Positions 34,778 through 41,673 of a DNA stretch of 64,000 bases are shown piece after piece (the first letter of the stretch is position 1; each line of letters opens with the position of its first letter). The translations under genes were made by a program, and so were the position numbers. Origin of the DNA: Nitrospirota bacterium (GTDB taxonomy: Bacteria; Nitrospirota; Thermodesulfovibrionia; Thermodesulfovibrionales; UBA6898); the NCBI GenBank assembly GCA_021783515.1, contig JAJXTV010000017.1, forward strand, positions 1-64,000. Direction: 5' to 3'. Under the pieces are notes generated by a model. That model worked only from the letters and a program-made list of their open reading frames with translations, did not search any database and was not told where the DNA came from.

Positions 34778-34798
34778 CAAAAAGGGCAACGAGGCCCT
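34778..34798 (-). terminator. rho-independent terminator overlapping the stop region of subtilase 1
   Basis: Minus strand AGGGC-CTCGTT-GCCCT-TTTT. Confidence 0.65.
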
Positions 34799-36620
34799 AA
34801 TTTTTCCGTCGATGCAGCCGCGCCCCCCCCAGCAAAAGAAGCGGCAGCAAATAGACGAACAGGTCCGCGGCCGACGCAGAACCCCTCGCGCCGACGGAGC
34901 ATCCCCCTCCGCCGCCGCCTGAAGTGGGAGGGGTTGGCTGGGGCCCCTCCTCAGTTGTCGCCGCAGCCTGGTTGGAATATCCCGACGACGCGGGTATCGT
35001 GCTGAAGGCGCTCACCCGATACGTATACGCAGTAGAGGGCAGAAGCCCCTTGCTGTCCGCATATGTCGTCGCGTCCGGCCCTGTCCTGTCTATCTCCTCG
35101 AAGTTACCGCCGGTCGTCTTCCTCTCTATCACATAACCGTCCTCTCCGGTTGCGTGGTCCGTCCACGCAAGGGTGATCGAAGATGACGATACGGCGGCGG
35201 CGGAAAGTCCATCCGGCGGCAGCAGCGAAGAGAGCGCCTTGTAGGCATTGGCCCGGCCGCCGCTAACCGTGCGGCCTTGCAGAGACGGCAGCGGGTCGAC
35301 ATAGCGAATGATGGTGGCGCGGACCTGCTGGTAGCTGAAATTGGGGTAGAAGCTTTCGAACAGGCCTGCCAGCCCTGTAATGTGGGGCGTAGCCATTGAA
35401 GTCCCGGAGCAGAATTCATAGCCCACCCCGAAAGATATGCCGCAAAAGGGCGACTTAAGGGATGTGGGCACGGTGCTCAGGATGTCGACGCCGGGGGCCG
35501 CCACCTGCACGCTCTTTTCACCGTAATTACTGAAAGAGGCGAGCGTATCGGTCTCGTCGGTCGCCGCGACGGAAATGATATTCGGAAGATTGTAGCCGGC
35601 CGGATAGACCGGCGTTACATCGTTATTGCTGCCGACCGAATTGGCGTCGCCATTTCCCGCGGCGGTGATAAAGAGAATGCCGGCAGCGTTTGCAGCGGAA
35701 ATCGCGCTCTTTTCAAGGTTAGAAAAGGTGTCACCGGCGAAACTGGCGTTGATGATCCTCGCACCGTTGGCGATCGCATACTCGATCGCGGCGGCCTCGT
35801 CGGCAACCGTCCCTTCGCCCTTGGAGTCGAGCACCTTCAGCGGCATGAGCCTCACCTTCCAGAGCATCCCCGCGATGCCGGTGGCGTTGTTGCCGACCGC
35901 GCCGATAATGCCGCTCACATGGCTGCCGTGGCCGTCGTCGTCCATGGGATTATTGTCCTTGGCTACGAAGTTCCATCCCCTGCAGTCGGCGACATAGCCG
36001 TTATGGTCGTTATCGCTTCCGGATGAGCAGTCGGAATCGCCCGGGTTGGTCCAGATATTGGCCGCAAGGTCGGCATGGGTATAGTCGATTCCGGTATCGA
36101 TGACTGCAATAACAAGACCGCTGTTGCCGCTGATGACGTCCCACGCCTGGGGCATATGCATGTCGGCGCCGGCGACAAGACGGTTGCTGAGCGCCCACTG
36201 CGAGCTAAACGACGGATCGTTCGGGACCGTAGAGCGGACCGACCTGAGATAGTTGGGCTCGGCATATTCGACATCGGGGTCCTGCATATAGAGGGTGACG
36301 GCATCCCTTACCGAAAGACCGAGGGGAAGCCTCACCTGCTCCGCACGGAGCAGGGGCAGGTCCCTCATCTTCTTTGTGCCCAGCGCACCTTGCAACCGCG
36401 CCGAGGAGGACGAGCGCATCTCGGACTTGTATCTGACAATCAGTTCGCCCTCCCTGAAGCCGTTTCTTTCGATGTTCGCCAATATCGACTGCAGCGTAAT
36501 CTTTGCGGCGGCGGGTGCCCCTGCCGCGACAGTCGCCCCACTCGTAGAGACGGCAGCGTTCCATGAGTTGCCGCAGGAAACAAGAAGGAGGACACACACC
36601 AGGGCCAGCAGCTTTTTCAT
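34797..36620 (-). CDS. S8 subtilisin-like lipoprotein protease with FN3 domain and Cys-containing C-terminal sorting-like signal
   Basis: Lipobox LLLVSCGNS; VIAVIDTGIDYTH, DGHGSHVSG, FCSGTSMATPH; FN3; C-terminus GGGGGGCSVGARGSASAADLFVYLLPLLLLGGARLHRRKN. Confidence 0.92.
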   Translation of the reverse strand: MKKLLALVCVLLLVSCGNSWNAAVSTSGATVAAGAPAAAKITLQSILANIERNGFREGELIVRYKSEMRSSSSARLQGALGTKKMRDLPLLRAEQVRLPLGLSVRDAVTLYMQDPDVEYAEPNYLRSVRSTVPNDPSFSSQWALSNRLVAGADMHMPQAWDVISGNSGLVIAVIDTGIDYTHADLAANIWTNPGDSDCSSGSDNDHNGYVADCRGWNFVAKDNNPMDDDGHGSHVSGIIGAVGNNATGIAGMLWKVRLMPLKVLDSKGEGTVADEAAAIEYAIANGARIINASFAGDTFSNLEKSAISAANAAGILFITAAGNGDANSVGSNNDVTPVYPAGYNLPNIISVAATDETDTLASFSNYGEKSVQVAAPGVDILSTVPTSLKSPFCGISFGVGYEFCSGTSMATPHITGLAGLFESFYPNFSYQQVRATIIRYVDPLPSLQGRTVSGGRANAYKALSSLLPPDGLSAAAVSSSSITLAWTDHATGEDGYVIERKTTGGNFEEIDRTGPDATTYADSKGLLPSTAYTYRVSAFSTIPASSGYSNQAAATTEEGPQPTPPTSGGGGGGCSVGARGSASAADLFVYLLPLLLLGGARLHRRKN

Positions 36621-36751: not shown

Positions 36752-37285
36752 TCATAGGGACCCCAGGTAGACGGCGTTCGCCAGAAGATGGAAGATCGTC
36801 GACGGGATGACGCTGGAGGTCCTCAGATACAGAAACCCCATAACCAGAGAAGGGAAGAAGGTGAGGGGAGCATAAGAGTCTCCGGAATAAAAAAACGCCG
36901 GGAGGTGGGCTACGCTGAAGAGCAGGCTCGTAAGGACGATCCCCCTGAAATTGTTCCCGGCCGTCTCCTGGATAAAGCCGCGGAAGAAAACCTCTTCCGG
37001 AAAACAGACCCCGAAAAGCTGGGCCGTCAGCATTACCGGGCCCGGCATAGAAAAACTCCTGCCCTGCAGGAAAAGAAAAAGAAACGGCAGCAACACAGAG
37101 ACGGAGACCATCGCCGTAAGGGCCGCCTGCCTGGCGGAGATGCCCATGGTGATCTTCCCCCCGAGTGCCAGGGGCGCGGCTACCAGATAGATGGGGAGCA
37201 GATATGCTGCAAAGCGGAGGCTGAATGCATGTGAGGCAAAGACGATCACGAGGAGCAGGGCATACGCGAAAAGGGCCTTCTTCAC
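36752..37285 (-). CDS. CPBP-family intramembrane glutamic endopeptidase (GTG start proposed)
   Basis: Polytopic; CFPEEVFFRGFIQE (EExxxR), FSVAHLPAFF, FHLLANAV (HxxxN). ORF track start 37351 would overlap the upstream terminator. Confidence 0.88.
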   Translation of the reverse strand: MKKALFAYALLLVIVFASHAFSLRFAAYLLPIYLVAAPLALGGKITMGISARQAALTAMVSVSVLLPFLFLFLQGRSFSMPGPVMLTAQLFGVCFPEEVFFRGFIQETAGNNFRGIVLTSLLFSVAHLPAFFYSGDSYAPLTFFPSLVMGFLYLRTSSVIPSTIFHLLANAVYLGSL

Positions 37286-37309
37286 GAGGGATCCGCTCCC
37301 TTCAGCAAC

Positions 37310-37336
37310 AAAAACAGAGAGGGGCCGAAGCCCCTC
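37310..37336 (-). terminator. rho-independent terminator of subtilase 2
   Basis: Minus strand GAGGGGC-TTCG-GCCCCTC-TCTGTTTTTG. Confidence 0.8.
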
Positions 37337-37366
37337 CCGAGGATGTCTCACGCAACTGAGGGGGGA

Positions 37367-39994
37367 CTATTTCCTCCTGCGCCTAAGCGCCCTCATCGCC
37401 GCCACCAAGAAGAGCGGCGCAAACATCAACATGATATCGGCAGCAGCCGATGGCCCGTCAACCTTTCCGCCCACTGAGCATCCGCCCCCGCCTCCGCCAG
37501 AGTTGCTCGAGCCTGCCTGTGCCTCCGTGGTCGCAGCCGCTTCATCCGAGTAGGCCGACTCCGCCGCGACAGGGTATCTGTTGGGCGGATTGGGGAGGTC
37601 GCTCGCCGCCTTGATCCGATAGGAATAGGTCGTGCCGGCGCTCAACCCGCCATCGGCAAAGGACGTCACGTTCTGGCCGACCGTTGCCACCTGCTGGAAG
37701 GCGCCGCCCGCCTGTTTCCTTTCGATCACGTAGGAGTCCTCGCCGGAGTTGTCCGCCCAGGAAAGAGAAATCTGTGACGATGATTTGGCGGTGGCCGTCA
37801 GGCCTGTAGGCTTCAGAAGGGACGTGATCGCCCACTGGGCGTTGATGCGTCCTCCCGAATAGATCCAGCCGTCCAGGGTGGGCAGTTTGTCCACATACCT
37901 GATGATCATCCCCCTGATCTGCTGATACGTGTAGTCGGGATATACGCTATAGAGCAGCGCCGCCAGGCCGGCCACATGAGGGGCGGCCATCGACGTCCCG
38001 CTGCAGACGTTGTAGCCGGCGGTCGCAATGCCGGTGCACCAGTCGCCAAGAAAGACGTTCGAGACCGTAGTCGGCACCGTGCTCATGATGTACTGGCCGG
38101 GAGCGGCCACATGCACCGTCTGCAGCCCAAAGTTGCTGAAGGCGGTCCTTCTGTCGTTCTGGTCCGTAGCCGCAACCGAGATCACGTTGTCCAATACATA
38201 TGACGCGGGATAGGTCGGACTCACGTCGTTGTTGTCTCCCACGCCGTCGACCGGATTATCGGCGCTTCCGTTTCCTGCAGCGGCGATCAGGATCGTCCCG
38301 GCCTGGCCCGCGTCGACGAGGGCGTCCCTCATCGCGTACGACATAGCAGGACCGCCGAGACTCGCGTTCATGATCTTTACGCCTTTAAAGACCGCATAGC
38401 CGATCGCATCGACAATTGCCGAAGTCGTGCCCATGCCGCTTCCATCCAACACTTTGAGCGGCATAAGTTCCACGTTCCAGTTGACTCCTGCGATCCCGAG
38501 ACCGTTATTCCCGGTTGCGCCTATGATGCCGGCGACATGGGTGCCGTGGCCGAAGTCGTCCCAGGGATCGTTGGTATCGGAGACGAAGTTCCAGCCTCGC
38601 CAATCGTCGATCTTGTGGTTGTTATCGTACGAGACGGTATCGGGCGTGTATGCCGCGCTGTTGTCGGCCATGATCGCGACTTCAACCCTTCCCTCAAGCA
38701 GGTCCGCAAATTTCTGCGCATCAGTCGCCGTCCCTTCAAACGCGCCGAAGTGCATCGGGACAGCGACCTTCGGCCGTATGGTCAAGGCGGCCTGGGCGGC
38801 CTCGTCGGCGCTCATAACAGTCACTCCGGAGACCGGCAATATCGCCACGTCAGCGCCCTTGATAGGCGAAGATGCCATCTCGGGAATTATGTCCGTATCG
38901 CCAGCGAAATAGATCCTCGTGCCCGGCTCCTGGTTAAGATCGACCACCGGTTTAGGGGTGTCAGTCGAAGGGGCTATGTCACGGTTTCGGTTTACAGTAA
39001 AGACAAAGCCGACCCAGTTGCTGGCCCTGGGATTGGCGGTCCTGCCGGTATTGTAGTTATATGCCGGCACCGCGGTAATGTCGATCCCTCCCACGGTAAG
39101 CGCAGAGCCCGGCTCGACGGTCATGATCTGACCGGCAAAGGGATATGTCGGGTCCTGCCTCAGTACATAGGCGCAGTCGGCCGTAGTAACGACAACAGTA
39201 TTGGGTCCCTTGACCTTGGAGACATCGATCGGGGAGCAATGGTCCAGATGCGAGTTGGAGATAAGAATGATATCTGCGACATCCGGGCTTTGGATGTTGT
39301 AGGGATCGGTAATGATCACCTTCTCCCCCACAATCTTGAAAGTATCGTTGCCCATCCAGTGCATATCCTGCAGAAGCACCTTCACCCTGTCGGCCCACAT
39401 GTTGCCGACCAGATCCTGATGGGTATAATCGATGCCCGTATCGAGCACCGCCACCGTCACGCTCCTGCTGCCGGTGCTGACGTTCCAGGCGCCGGTCGCC
39501 CGGATATCGGCGCCGGGGGTGCCGCTCGCATAATTACCGGTATTGTTGAGGGCCCACTGCTGCGGGTTGAAATACGTATCGTTCGGGGTAGCCGACGCCG
39601 AGTAGATATAGTTGGGTTCGGCATAAAGGACGTTAGAGTCAGCCATATAGGCGGTAACCGCATCCTCCGCGGAGAGGCCGGCAGGCAGCTTCACCTGCTG
39701 GAGATTGGAAACGTTCGCGAAACTCTTGGTCACCGTCGCCCCGACTGCCTGATGAACAGCCGACATCGTAGTCGCAGCCGTGCCTTCTTTAAACCTGACG
39801 AGGAGCTCCCCTTCCGCATAATTCGCCTTCGCCGCCTGGGCCAGCACCGCCTGGGCCGATACCGTCGGCGAGGAGGCCTGACTGACCGTCACCTTCGCCC
39901 CCGGCGTCGAGAAGCTCGTAGTAGAATTGCTCCCGCAGGATACGAGCGCAAGAGATGCGATGAGTGCGAATATGATAAAAGCGAATCTTTTCAT
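37367..39994 (-). CDS. S8 subtilisin-like lipoprotein protease with an MBL-fold domain inserted in the catalytic domain, FN3 and Cys-containing C-terminal sorting-like signal
   Basis: Lipobox LALVSCGSN; VAVLDTGIDYTH; UlaG-like MBL segment residues ~203-448; FGHGTHVAG; VCSGTSMAAPH; C-terminus GGGGGGCSVGGKVDGPSAAADIMLMFAPLFLVAAMRALRRRRK. Confidence 0.93.
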   Translation of the reverse strand: MKRFAFIIFALIASLALVSCGSNSTTSFSTPGAKVTVSQASSPTVSAQAVLAQAAKANYAEGELLVRFKEGTAATTMSAVHQAVGATVTKSFANVSNLQQVKLPAGLSAEDAVTAYMADSNVLYAEPNYIYSASATPNDTYFNPQQWALNNTGNYASGTPGADIRATGAWNVSTGSRSVTVAVLDTGIDYTHQDLVGNMWADRVKVLLQDMHWMGNDTFKIVGEKVIITDPYNIQSPDVADIILISNSHLDHCSPIDVSKVKGPNTVVVTTADCAYVLRQDPTYPFAGQIMTVEPGSALTVGGIDITAVPAYNYNTGRTANPRASNWVGFVFTVNRNRDIAPSTDTPKPVVDLNQEPGTRIYFAGDTDIIPEMASSPIKGADVAILPVSGVTVMSADEAAQAALTIRPKVAVPMHFGAFEGTATDAQKFADLLEGRVEVAIMADNSAAYTPDTVSYDNNHKIDDWRGWNFVSDTNDPWDDFGHGTHVAGIIGATGNNGLGIAGVNWNVELMPLKVLDGSGMGTTSAIVDAIGYAVFKGVKIMNASLGGPAMSYAMRDALVDAGQAGTILIAAAGNGSADNPVDGVGDNNDVSPTYPASYVLDNVISVAATDQNDRRTAFSNFGLQTVHVAAPGQYIMSTVPTTVSNVFLGDWCTGIATAGYNVCSGTSMAAPHVAGLAALLYSVYPDYTYQQIRGMIIRYVDKLPTLDGWIYSGGRINAQWAITSLLKPTGLTATAKSSSQISLSWADNSGEDSYVIERKQAGGAFQQVATVGQNVTSFADGGLSAGTTYSYRIKAASDLPNPPNRYPVAAESAYSDEAAATTEAQAGSSNSGGGGGGCSVGGKVDGPSAAADIMLMFAPLFLVAAMRALRRRRK
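38651..39388 (-). other. UlaG-like metallo-beta-lactamase-fold domain inserted between subtilase Asp and His motifs
   Basis: VLLQDMHWMGNDTFKIVGEKVIITDPYNIQSPDVADIILISNSHLDHCSPIDVSKVKGPNTVVV...GGIDITAVPAYNYN...IYFAGDTDIIPEM...DVAILPVSG...KVAVPMHFGAFEGTATDAQKFADLLEGRVEVAIM. Confidence 0.9.
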
Positions 39995-40014
39995 TCCAAT
40001 CCCTCTCCTTCCTA

Positions 40015-40042
40015 TAAAAAAGGGCGGGCTCTTCGCCCGCCC
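40015..40042 (-). terminator. rho-independent terminator of the Ig-like lipoprotein gene
   Basis: Minus strand GGGCGGGC-GAAGA-GCCCGCCC-TTTTTT. Confidence 0.9.
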
Positions 40043-40056
40043 CGTCTCACTTCTTC

Positions 40057-41673
40057 TTACGGGTTAACCGTTACCGCCACTGATGCTGTTTGGCCGCAGT
40101 GATCTCCGACAGTGATCGTCACGGGCGTAGCTGCCGCCGGTATACCGGAGGTTACAGTAAACGTGCCGCCGGAAGCAACCGGTGGAGTAGGCGTCGGAAC
40201 AAGCACAACGTCACTTGAGGCAATCGTGTAGGGAAGCAATCCCCCGGTTACTGTGACCAGTGAAGGGGTGCAGACTCCGGTGGTGCAGACGACCGACAGA
40301 GGCGCCACCGAGAAGGGTGTGCCGCCGACTATCGTCACCGTTACCGTCTTCGATGCGCCGGTTGAATCATAGACTGTCAGCGTTACGTTCCCCGGACACG
40401 CATTTGCAGCCACTTTCGCAGTTATTGTCGAGCCGCTCCATGAGCCGTTGTTCACCGTGTTGTTATACACGCGCGTCGGGTCGGAGGATATCGTCGTATA
40501 AGACGGGGTGCCTCCGGTAATCCCGAATGTGATTGTCTGCTCAGAAGCCTGGCTGACCACAGTCCTCGCGCCCGGGATAACGGTCAGGGCTTGGGCCGGA
40601 GGAGTGACGGTAACCTGGGTGGTGCCTGATGGGGCCCCGCCGGCATCTGCTTTAATTGTGACAGTCACCGGTAAGGAGCCGGCGGTGAGCGTCGGTGCAG
40701 TGTATGCGACAGTCGCAACTCCGGCAGTCGTCTGTCCGAACGGCACTATTGTACCTCCGCCGCTGACGCTGAAATTCACGGCTGTGCCGTCGGGGACAGC
40801 GCTCCCGACCGTAGTCGTAACATTGGCCGTCACCGTGGAAGTGCCGCCGGATGGGACAGTTACGGGGTTCGCAAATACCACTATATTGCCGACTTCAATG
40901 GGCGTCAGAAACAGCGTTATCACATTGCCCGCACCGGTCGCCGCCGAGACAGCAGTGACGTTGACGGGGGTATCGAAATTCCTGATCTCAGAAGGCACCA
41001 CCTTGACCCTGGCGAATGCCTGCCCATCGGGATTGGTCGTCTTCACAGCGCCGTCGGGAAAGGTGAGTTCCGTACTGTCTGAGCCGAATGTCACCGCATC
41101 GCCCAGCACGGGGCTGCCTGTCTCGTCCTTAACCGTCGCCCTGACAATAGCTTCGCCGCTGCTGAGATAAAAATCAGTCGGATCGTTGTAGATTCCGTCG
41201 CTATTGTTGTCCACCGCCAGGGTAAGCGTCGGGACTGCAGTCGCCGTCGGAAAGGATAGGTCAAAGAGTGAGAAGAAGACCATCTTTCTGTCCCTGACCT
41301 TGCCCGAGCCGGTATTGACCTCAGCCTGGACCGTTGCAAACCCCGCGTCGGTAGAGTAGAGCGATACCGTTGCATAGCCCAGTGAATTCGTCGTCGCGGT
41401 GGTCGAGCTGAGGACACCGAGAAGGGAAAGATTGGTAAATACCACCGGCACGCCCGCAATGGGGACGCCGTTTCCGTCTAGCACCTTTGCCCGCATCGAG
41501 GTGGAGGAATTCGTCTGAACAATCTGCTGGACCGCCAAAAGCTGAACGATGGAAGGAACGGAAGGGTTTACCCCTCCCGGCGAACTCGAGCTGCCCGCCC
41601 CTCCGCCGCAACCCGCCAGCAAAGCCACTATCACAAACAGCGCTATTGGTAACGGCAACCTTTTTCTTGTCAT
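40057..41673 (-). CDS. lipoprotein with bacterial Ig-like (Big_1-type) repeats
   Basis: Lipobox IVALLAGCGGG; VLDGNGVPIAGVPVVFTNLSLLGVLSSTTATTNSLGYATVSLYS and later similar units. Confidence 0.82.
   Translation of the reverse strand: MTRKRLPLPIALFVIVALLAGCGGGAGSSSSPGGVNPSVPSIVQLLAVQQIVQTNSSTSMRAKVLDGNGVPIAGVPVVFTNLSLLGVLSSTTATTNSLGYATVSLYSTDAGFATVQAEVNTGSGKVRDRKMVFFSLFDLSFPTATAVPTLTLAVDNNSDGIYNDPTDFYLSSGEAIVRATVKDETGSPVLGDAVTFGSDSTELTFPDGAVKTTNPDGQAFARVKVVPSEIRNFDTPVNVTAVSAATGAGNVITLFLTPIEVGNIVVFANPVTVPSGGTSTVTANVTTTVGSAVPDGTAVNFSVSGGGTIVPFGQTTAGVATVAYTAPTLTAGSLPVTVTIKADAGGAPSGTTQVTVTPPAQALTVIPGARTVVSQASEQTITFGITGGTPSYTTISSDPTRVYNNTVNNGSWSGSTITAKVAANACPGNVTLTVYDSTGASKTVTVTIVGGTPFSVAPLSVVCTTGVCTPSLVTVTGGLLPYTIASSDVVLVPTPTPPVASGGTFTVTSGIPAAATPVTITVGDHCGQTASVAVTVNP

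Follow-up and report, generated by a model that had tools for sequence, protein, structure and literature searches.

A subtilase of a Nitrospirota bacterium with an entire MBL-fold domain nested between its catalytic Asp and His

The subtilase gene at positions 37367–39994 (minus strand) of the window, i.e. the whole stretch of 64,000 nucleotides from a Nitrospirota bacterium that was analysed, encodes a complete metallo-beta-lactamase (MBL)-fold domain within its S8 catalytic domain. We consider it probable that this protein stems from a once-arisen, in-frame graft of an MBL domain into a subtilase, and that it is an exported, active protease in which the MBL domain serves as a non-catalytic stabilising or binding part.

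Domain architecture of the fusion protein

The gene is a single open frame of 875 amino acids with zero internal stops, as the sequence-only reading had stated, and its assignment is based on ORF and Pfam analysis and on orthologous fusions in two other genomes. Pfam Peptidase_S8 extends across residues 177–701 (E 5.9e-53, 180.5 bits versus a cut-off of 21.8), and nested within this match are Lactamase_B_2 (residues 235–346, E 1e-20) and Lactamase_B_3 (residues 212–415, E 1.1e-18). The same reading had placed a whole MBL domain inside the subtilisin catalytic domain, in the Asp-His loop, which is borne out by these nested matches together with the recovery of both folds by AlphaFold2 (AF2) and Foldseek.

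All parts of the gene described here are on the minus strand. The N-terminal signal with a lipobox-like LVSC (residues 1–20; 39935–39994), the class of which was assigned by inspection of the sequence, is followed by a Fervidolysin-type prodomain (residues 48–128; 39611–39853; PF22148 E 7.8e-17; AlphaFold2 pLDDT mostly >90). The first piece of the S8 catalytic domain (residues 177–202; 39389–39466; Pfam and sequence) holds Asp185 in VLDTGID. The MBL-fold insert comes next (residues 203–444; 38663–39388; identified by Pfam, stand-alone homologues and AF2/Foldseek), with the motifs GNDTF, TDPY, NSHLDHCSP, VPAYN, GDTD and PMHFG, and is joined by a linker, placed by alignment (residues 445–456; 38627–38662), to the resumed protease. 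This second catalytic piece (residues 457–724; 37823–38626; Pfam and sequence) contains His483 (GHGTH), the oxyanion Asn575 and Ser668 (GTSMAAPH), so that Asp185 is N-terminal and the other three residues are C-terminal to the insert. A Fibronectin type III domain with the segment after it (residues 728–810; 37565–37813; PF00041 E 2.8e-07 at residues 728–799) and a C-terminal tail recognised from its sequence (residues 833–875; 37370–37498) complete the protein. The triad and the oxyanion Asn lie in standard motifs and are kept in all three known fusions, and because they are present the protease is most likely active.

The paralogous subtilase at 34797–36620 (minus strand; Pfam, alignment) had been put forward as an internal control with a short loop at the place of the insert; it indeed has an ordinary short Asp-His loop, and its Peptidase_S8 match is unbroken at residues 167–440. 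A 521-residue open frame antisense to the fusion gene (38537–40102, plus strand) seems to be a side effect of the high G+C content of the coding sequence.

The distance from the Asp motif to GHGTH is 60–66 residues in the insert-less subtilases compared, versus 303–307 in the fusions. The protease sequence ends with NMWAD before the insert and restarts with (Y)DNNxKxDDWRGWNF after it, and in the alignment some 10–14 residues of the Asp-His loop ('NIWTNPGExxxNGID' in insert-less subtilases) are replaced. Stand-alone MBL proteins align with the insert from their mature N-terminus, just past the export signal region, to their C-terminus; this implies that essentially the whole mature protein was taken in at the expense of these loop residues. 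The bounds first proposed, 38651–39388 (residues 203–448), are correct to within a few residues, as stand-alone relatives align from about residue 202–207 to about residue 443–446.

Fold and family of the insert

Whether the insert folds as an MBL domain had been set beforehand as a test, and the predictions agree that it does. Modelled alone by AF2 it reaches a pLDDT of 88.9 and a pTM of 0.89, and its top Foldseek matches all have the alpha-beta/beta-alpha MBL fold, the best solved neighbours being UPF0173-type proteins (3kl7, TMt 0.81). The AlphaFold2 model of the whole protein, made from a 60-row alignment, has a mean pLDDT of 78 and a pTM of 0.82, with the insert mostly at 80–96. Its Foldseek matches include 3kl7, an MBL protein (TMt 0.80, rmsd 2.2), as well as deseasin MCP-01, in an alignment of 597 columns that spans the insert (TMt 0.76). 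In the protease half the pLDDT is about 50 in stretches, and the model is thus no basis for domain contacts or gating geometry.

The insert had been described as UlaG-like. Its MBL fold and features stand, but in profile searches it is closer to UPF0173/PRK00685 (77.5 bits) than to UlaG (19 bits), both scores being under the curated cut-offs; the NCBIfam cut-off for PRK00685 is 144 bits, and the stand-alone relatives (103–106 bits) are under it as well. The UPF0173 papers in our literature search gave no function for these proteins.

Occurrence of the fusion

Among 61 relatives, the same full-length fusion was found in G014 (contig C11, 64% identity) and G018 (contig C13, 63% identity), in one open frame each. 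Both genomes are of a sister genus in the same family as the window genome. All three fusion genes occupy a common slot, adjoining an Ig-like (Big_1) gene, a putative lipoprotein gene and pilQ. In G018 and G014 the fusion is also flanked by very large secreted-looking proteins of 1664 and 1435 residues (L045:3723-8717 and L044:11794-16101); these contain repeats, are von Willebrand-like towards the N-terminus, and are missing at that place in the window. Searches of the order (177 genomes) and of the phylum (396 genomes) gave no further fusions. A single scan of 84,980 species genomes with short insert patterns returned the G014 contig as the sole fusion, and a plasmid collection gave only distant MBL proteins (25–31% identity), none of them annotated as a protease.

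The window genome is a draft of 48 contigs, in which an assembly chimera could in principle arise. However, the two other genomes, assembled independently, carry the full-length fusion with junctions identical to those of the window amid diverged sequence, and the window genome has no detected stand-alone copy available for misjoining. The fusion is therefore real and inherited, and a misassembly can for practical purposes be dismissed.

Origin of the fusion

Family tree analysis of the S8 domains, with the insert removed, places the three fusions in one clade (100/100), with insert-less subtilases of genus g3 as its sister group (96/95); the protease parts being one clade, the fusion has a single origin. 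The flanking pilN-Q genes tell a different history, as those of the window genome (G000) group with the insert-less G001 and G002, and those of G014 with the insert-less G022. Simple vertical inheritance is unsupported, since this grouping conflicts with the S8 tree.

The window gene is itself a mosaic. At its ends (residues 1–60 and 811–875) 17 informative sites are shared with G001/G002 versus 2 with G014/G018, whereas in the middle 65 are shared with G014/G018 versus 8 with G001/G002 (ends versus middle, Fisher p 1e-10). DNA identity in the initial part of the gene agrees with this pattern (about 82% versus about 57%). From this mosaic structure it follows that the fusion most likely entered the window lineage by recombination into a resident gene, whose export signal and C-terminal tail would have been retained. 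A possible alternative is ancient paralogy, with differential loss of a second copy.

Most genomes of the order encode exported stand-alone MBL proteins of the same family as the insert, with up to 57–59% identity to it. In the five genomes of the window genus (G000–G004) none was detected, save distant proteins at 27–29% identity; the MBL copies detected in the window genome are the fused one and one distant relative (27% identity). The fused MBL domains cluster together (94/57), apart from the 46 stand-alone sequences of Nitrospirota. Grouping the inserts with the stand-alone proteins of genus g3 is rejected (AU p 0.003), while a donor inside the wider family is not (AU p 0.12). A recent copy of a resident stand-alone MBL can be discarded in view of the g3 result and because only the distant relative was detected in the window genome. 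The predicted donor is of the exported, stand-alone, UPF0173-like MBL kind that is common in relatives.

Two features set the fused domains apart. A loop (TVNRNRDI...VVDLNQEPGTR, residues 333–360; 38915–38998, minus strand; found by alignment, with locally low pLDDT) holds about 20 residues that are present in all three fusions and in 0 of 47 aligned stand-alone MBL proteins. The segment DCAYVLRQDPTYPFAGQ (residues 273–289; 39128–39178, minus strand; alignment) holds a second extension, of roughly 8–11 residues, which is likewise found in 3 of 3 fusions and is absent from Nitrospirota stand-alone MBL proteins.

By eye, the exported stand-alone MBL genes L054:10375-11088 and L053:6111-6803 are clustered with amidohydrolase-like genes, a type III pantothenate kinase/biotin ligase-like pair and GalT-like genes, and this cluster adjoins a seryl-tRNA-synthetase-like gene. 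In an MBL relative from Candidatus Aenigmatarchaeota (L060:5860-6570) THEHDRHLS replaces THxHxDHCS, another altered site.

Loss of metal-site motifs under continued constraint

Alignment with stand-alone MBL proteins confirms the motif changes read from the window, GNDTF for GHDTF and NSHLDH for HEHxDH, and adds the loss of a third conserved His, in FHP, which has become ANP (residues 320–322). Of the full site set HxHxDH, GH, GDT and MH, the window insert thus has NSHLDH and GN in place of the first two, and keeps GDTD and PMH. The changes H216N and H247N correspond to the two residues replaced in TM_1162 structures whose deposited titles name H8A and H48A.

With the 89 near-invariant columns across the 46 Nitrospirota stand-alone MBL proteins as reference, 18 of 89 are changed in the window, 20 in G018 and 11 in G014. 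The changes in the window include the His of GHDTF, the first His of HxHxDH and the His of FHP; those in G018 the His of GHDTF, the second Asp of GDTD and the His of PMHY. G014 keeps all of these conserved His and Asp residues (GHDTF, HDHFDH, GDTD, PMHY), and the putative metal-site residues, which we take from family knowledge to be ligands, are kept by all 46 stand-alone proteins examined. As the residues lost are not the same in each lineage, the best interpretation is that the chemistry was no longer needed, not that one new site arose; in two of the three lineages the inserted domain seems to have kept its shape but not its chemistry.

These observations bear on the possibility of a bifunctional ecto-enzyme, in which the MBL domain would still work beside the protease as a hydrolase that depends on metal, its site perhaps being altered in the window protein. 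The complete motifs of G014, and in the window the retained HLDH, GDTD and PMH within a well-predicted fold, are in favour of it; yet Asn stands at two conserved His positions and a third is lost in the window, G018 is without two His and the second Asp of GDTD, and a single changed-but-selected site is not expected to vary by lineage. We regard this possibility as unlikely. In G014, catalysis by the MBL domain may persist, in which case a non-catalytic reading holds for two of the three fusions only. In the window protein, the MBL domain is most likely non-catalytic, because the predicted fold is kept and key metal-site residues are lost. Between the two options of the sequence-only reading, a sensor, inhibitor or substrate-gating module is accordingly favoured over a metal enzyme with a changed site, the site residues being lost differently in two of three fusions and kept in 46 stand-alone proteins.

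The insert is nevertheless conserved as a protein. Its identity between fusions is 62–71%, versus 72–76% for the protease, and 4-fold sites differ by 0.52–0.64, silent sites being near saturation. Because this level of amino-acid identity is maintained though 52–64% of four-fold sites differ, the insert is, as judged from these comparisons, under purifying selection nearly as strong as that on the protease. Relative-rate tests for the MBL part in the window and G018 lineages tend toward faster change but are non-significant (chi2 2.85 and 1.96). A tolerated passenger, harmless after a chance in-frame insertion into a surface loop and slowly decaying, would fit the independent motif losses in two lineages and the restriction to three genomes; with this constraint on the insert, a frame intact in all three fusions and the spread of the fusion by recombination, it is very improbable.

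The C-terminal tail and the adjacent CPBP protease

Between the two subtilases, both of which end with GGGGGGCS, a hydrophobic stretch and an Arg/Lys tail (RRRRK in the fusion), lies a gene for a CPBP/Rce1-like intramembrane protease resembling myxosortases (36752–37351, minus strand; PF02517 E 5.1e-17), a candidate processor of both tails. Its NCBIfam scores (MrtS 63.7 bits, Mrt_core 48.5 bits) are below every myxosortase cut-off, and the tail of the fusion matched no CTERM model in NCBIfam. The tail does resemble the MYXO-CTERM tag, which has a three-part layout and is cut by CPBP myxosortases (PMC11980579). The pairing of a CPBP gene with tailed subtilases recurs in relatives, and may represent an undescribed Nitrospirota sorting system.

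Proposed origin and role

We propose that DNA encoding the mature form of an exported UPF0173-like MBL protein was inserted in frame into a pilQ-linked subtilase gene of a Thermodesulfovibrionales bacterium, where it would have taken the place of a short loop that lies between the catalytic Asp and the catalytic His. After this single event, the window lineage would have gained the fusion by recombination, with the resident signal peptide and tail kept. The protein would be exported through its N-terminal signal with a Cys box, its subtilase part folding with the prodomain as chaperone; the tail would probably hold it at the cell envelope or surface, and would be processed by the adjacent CPBP protease. 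The MBL domain would then probably act as a rigid accessory: it would stabilise the protease after export and/or have a shaping or substrate-binding function beside the cleft. By analogy with the CspB jellyroll insertion, a role in stabilising or shaping the protease is most likely.

An alternative is a ligand-gated protease, in which the MBL pocket would bind a small molecule or peptide and alter cleft access or strain via the Asp-His loop. It is suggested by the location of the insert between two catalytic residues, by the fusion-only loops within the MBL domain and by the fold neighbour 7e3w of the UPF0173 family, deposited with cAMP bound; the pocket residues are, however, unconserved among the three fusions, and we find this alternative rather unlikely. 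Its far-reaching form would be a novel class of proteases, with a former metallo-hydrolase set between two residues of the catalytic triad as a sensor or gate that links binding at the old MBL pocket to the activity of the subtilase on the cell surface; this, too, seems to us unlikely.

The insertion of a whole enzyme between the catalytic residues of another is rare, and here all stages are available: the subtilase with the empty site, the stand-alone donor type, and three diverged fusions, of which one has its insert motifs intact and two have them broken. They offer a natural experiment in which a nested enzyme can be followed as it survives, gives up its chemistry and persists as structure, and the fusion suggests a permissive site for domain grafting in the subtilisin fold.

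Comparison with known systems

Our limited open-access literature search found no description of an MBL insertion in the Asp-His loop of a subtilase, in line with the sequence-only reading, and the architecture appears to be undescribed. The protease belongs with the S8A subtilases that have a Fervidolysin-type prodomain (PDB 3vv3, 1r6v), sharing their Asp, His, Ser, oxyanion Asn and prodomain; the deseasin MCP-01 group is both the best sequence match (E 5.4e-62) and the best fold match, but is without an MBL domain in the Asp-His loop. The insert shares the MBL fold (TMt 0.75–0.81) and the DHCSP, GDTD and PMH motifs with UPF0173 hydrolases (TM_1162, 3x2z; 3kl7) and COG2220/UlaG-like MBL proteins, and differs from UPF0173 hydrolases in being nested in a protease and in having Asn at the first His of HxHxDH and at the His of GHDTF. 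Its nearest relatives are the exported stand-alone MBL proteins of Thermodesulfovibrionales (e.g. L030, L054), which are separate genes, keep all conserved His and are without the two fusion-only loops.

Tripeptidyl-peptidase II has an insert of about 200 residues between the catalytic Asp and His, which is not known to be of the MBL fold, and is, unlike the fusion, a eukaryotic giant complex. In the Csp subtilases a foreign domain likewise interrupts S8; that of clostridial CspB, a jellyroll, stabilises the protease and aids its autoprocessing (PMC3567191). Csp subtilases are spore proteins with a beta jellyroll of about 130 residues, whereas the insert described here folds, as predicted, as an MBL domain. 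Subtilases with inserted domains and widespread MBL domains are thus already known; what appears to be new is an MBL domain between the catalytic Asp and His of an S8 protease.
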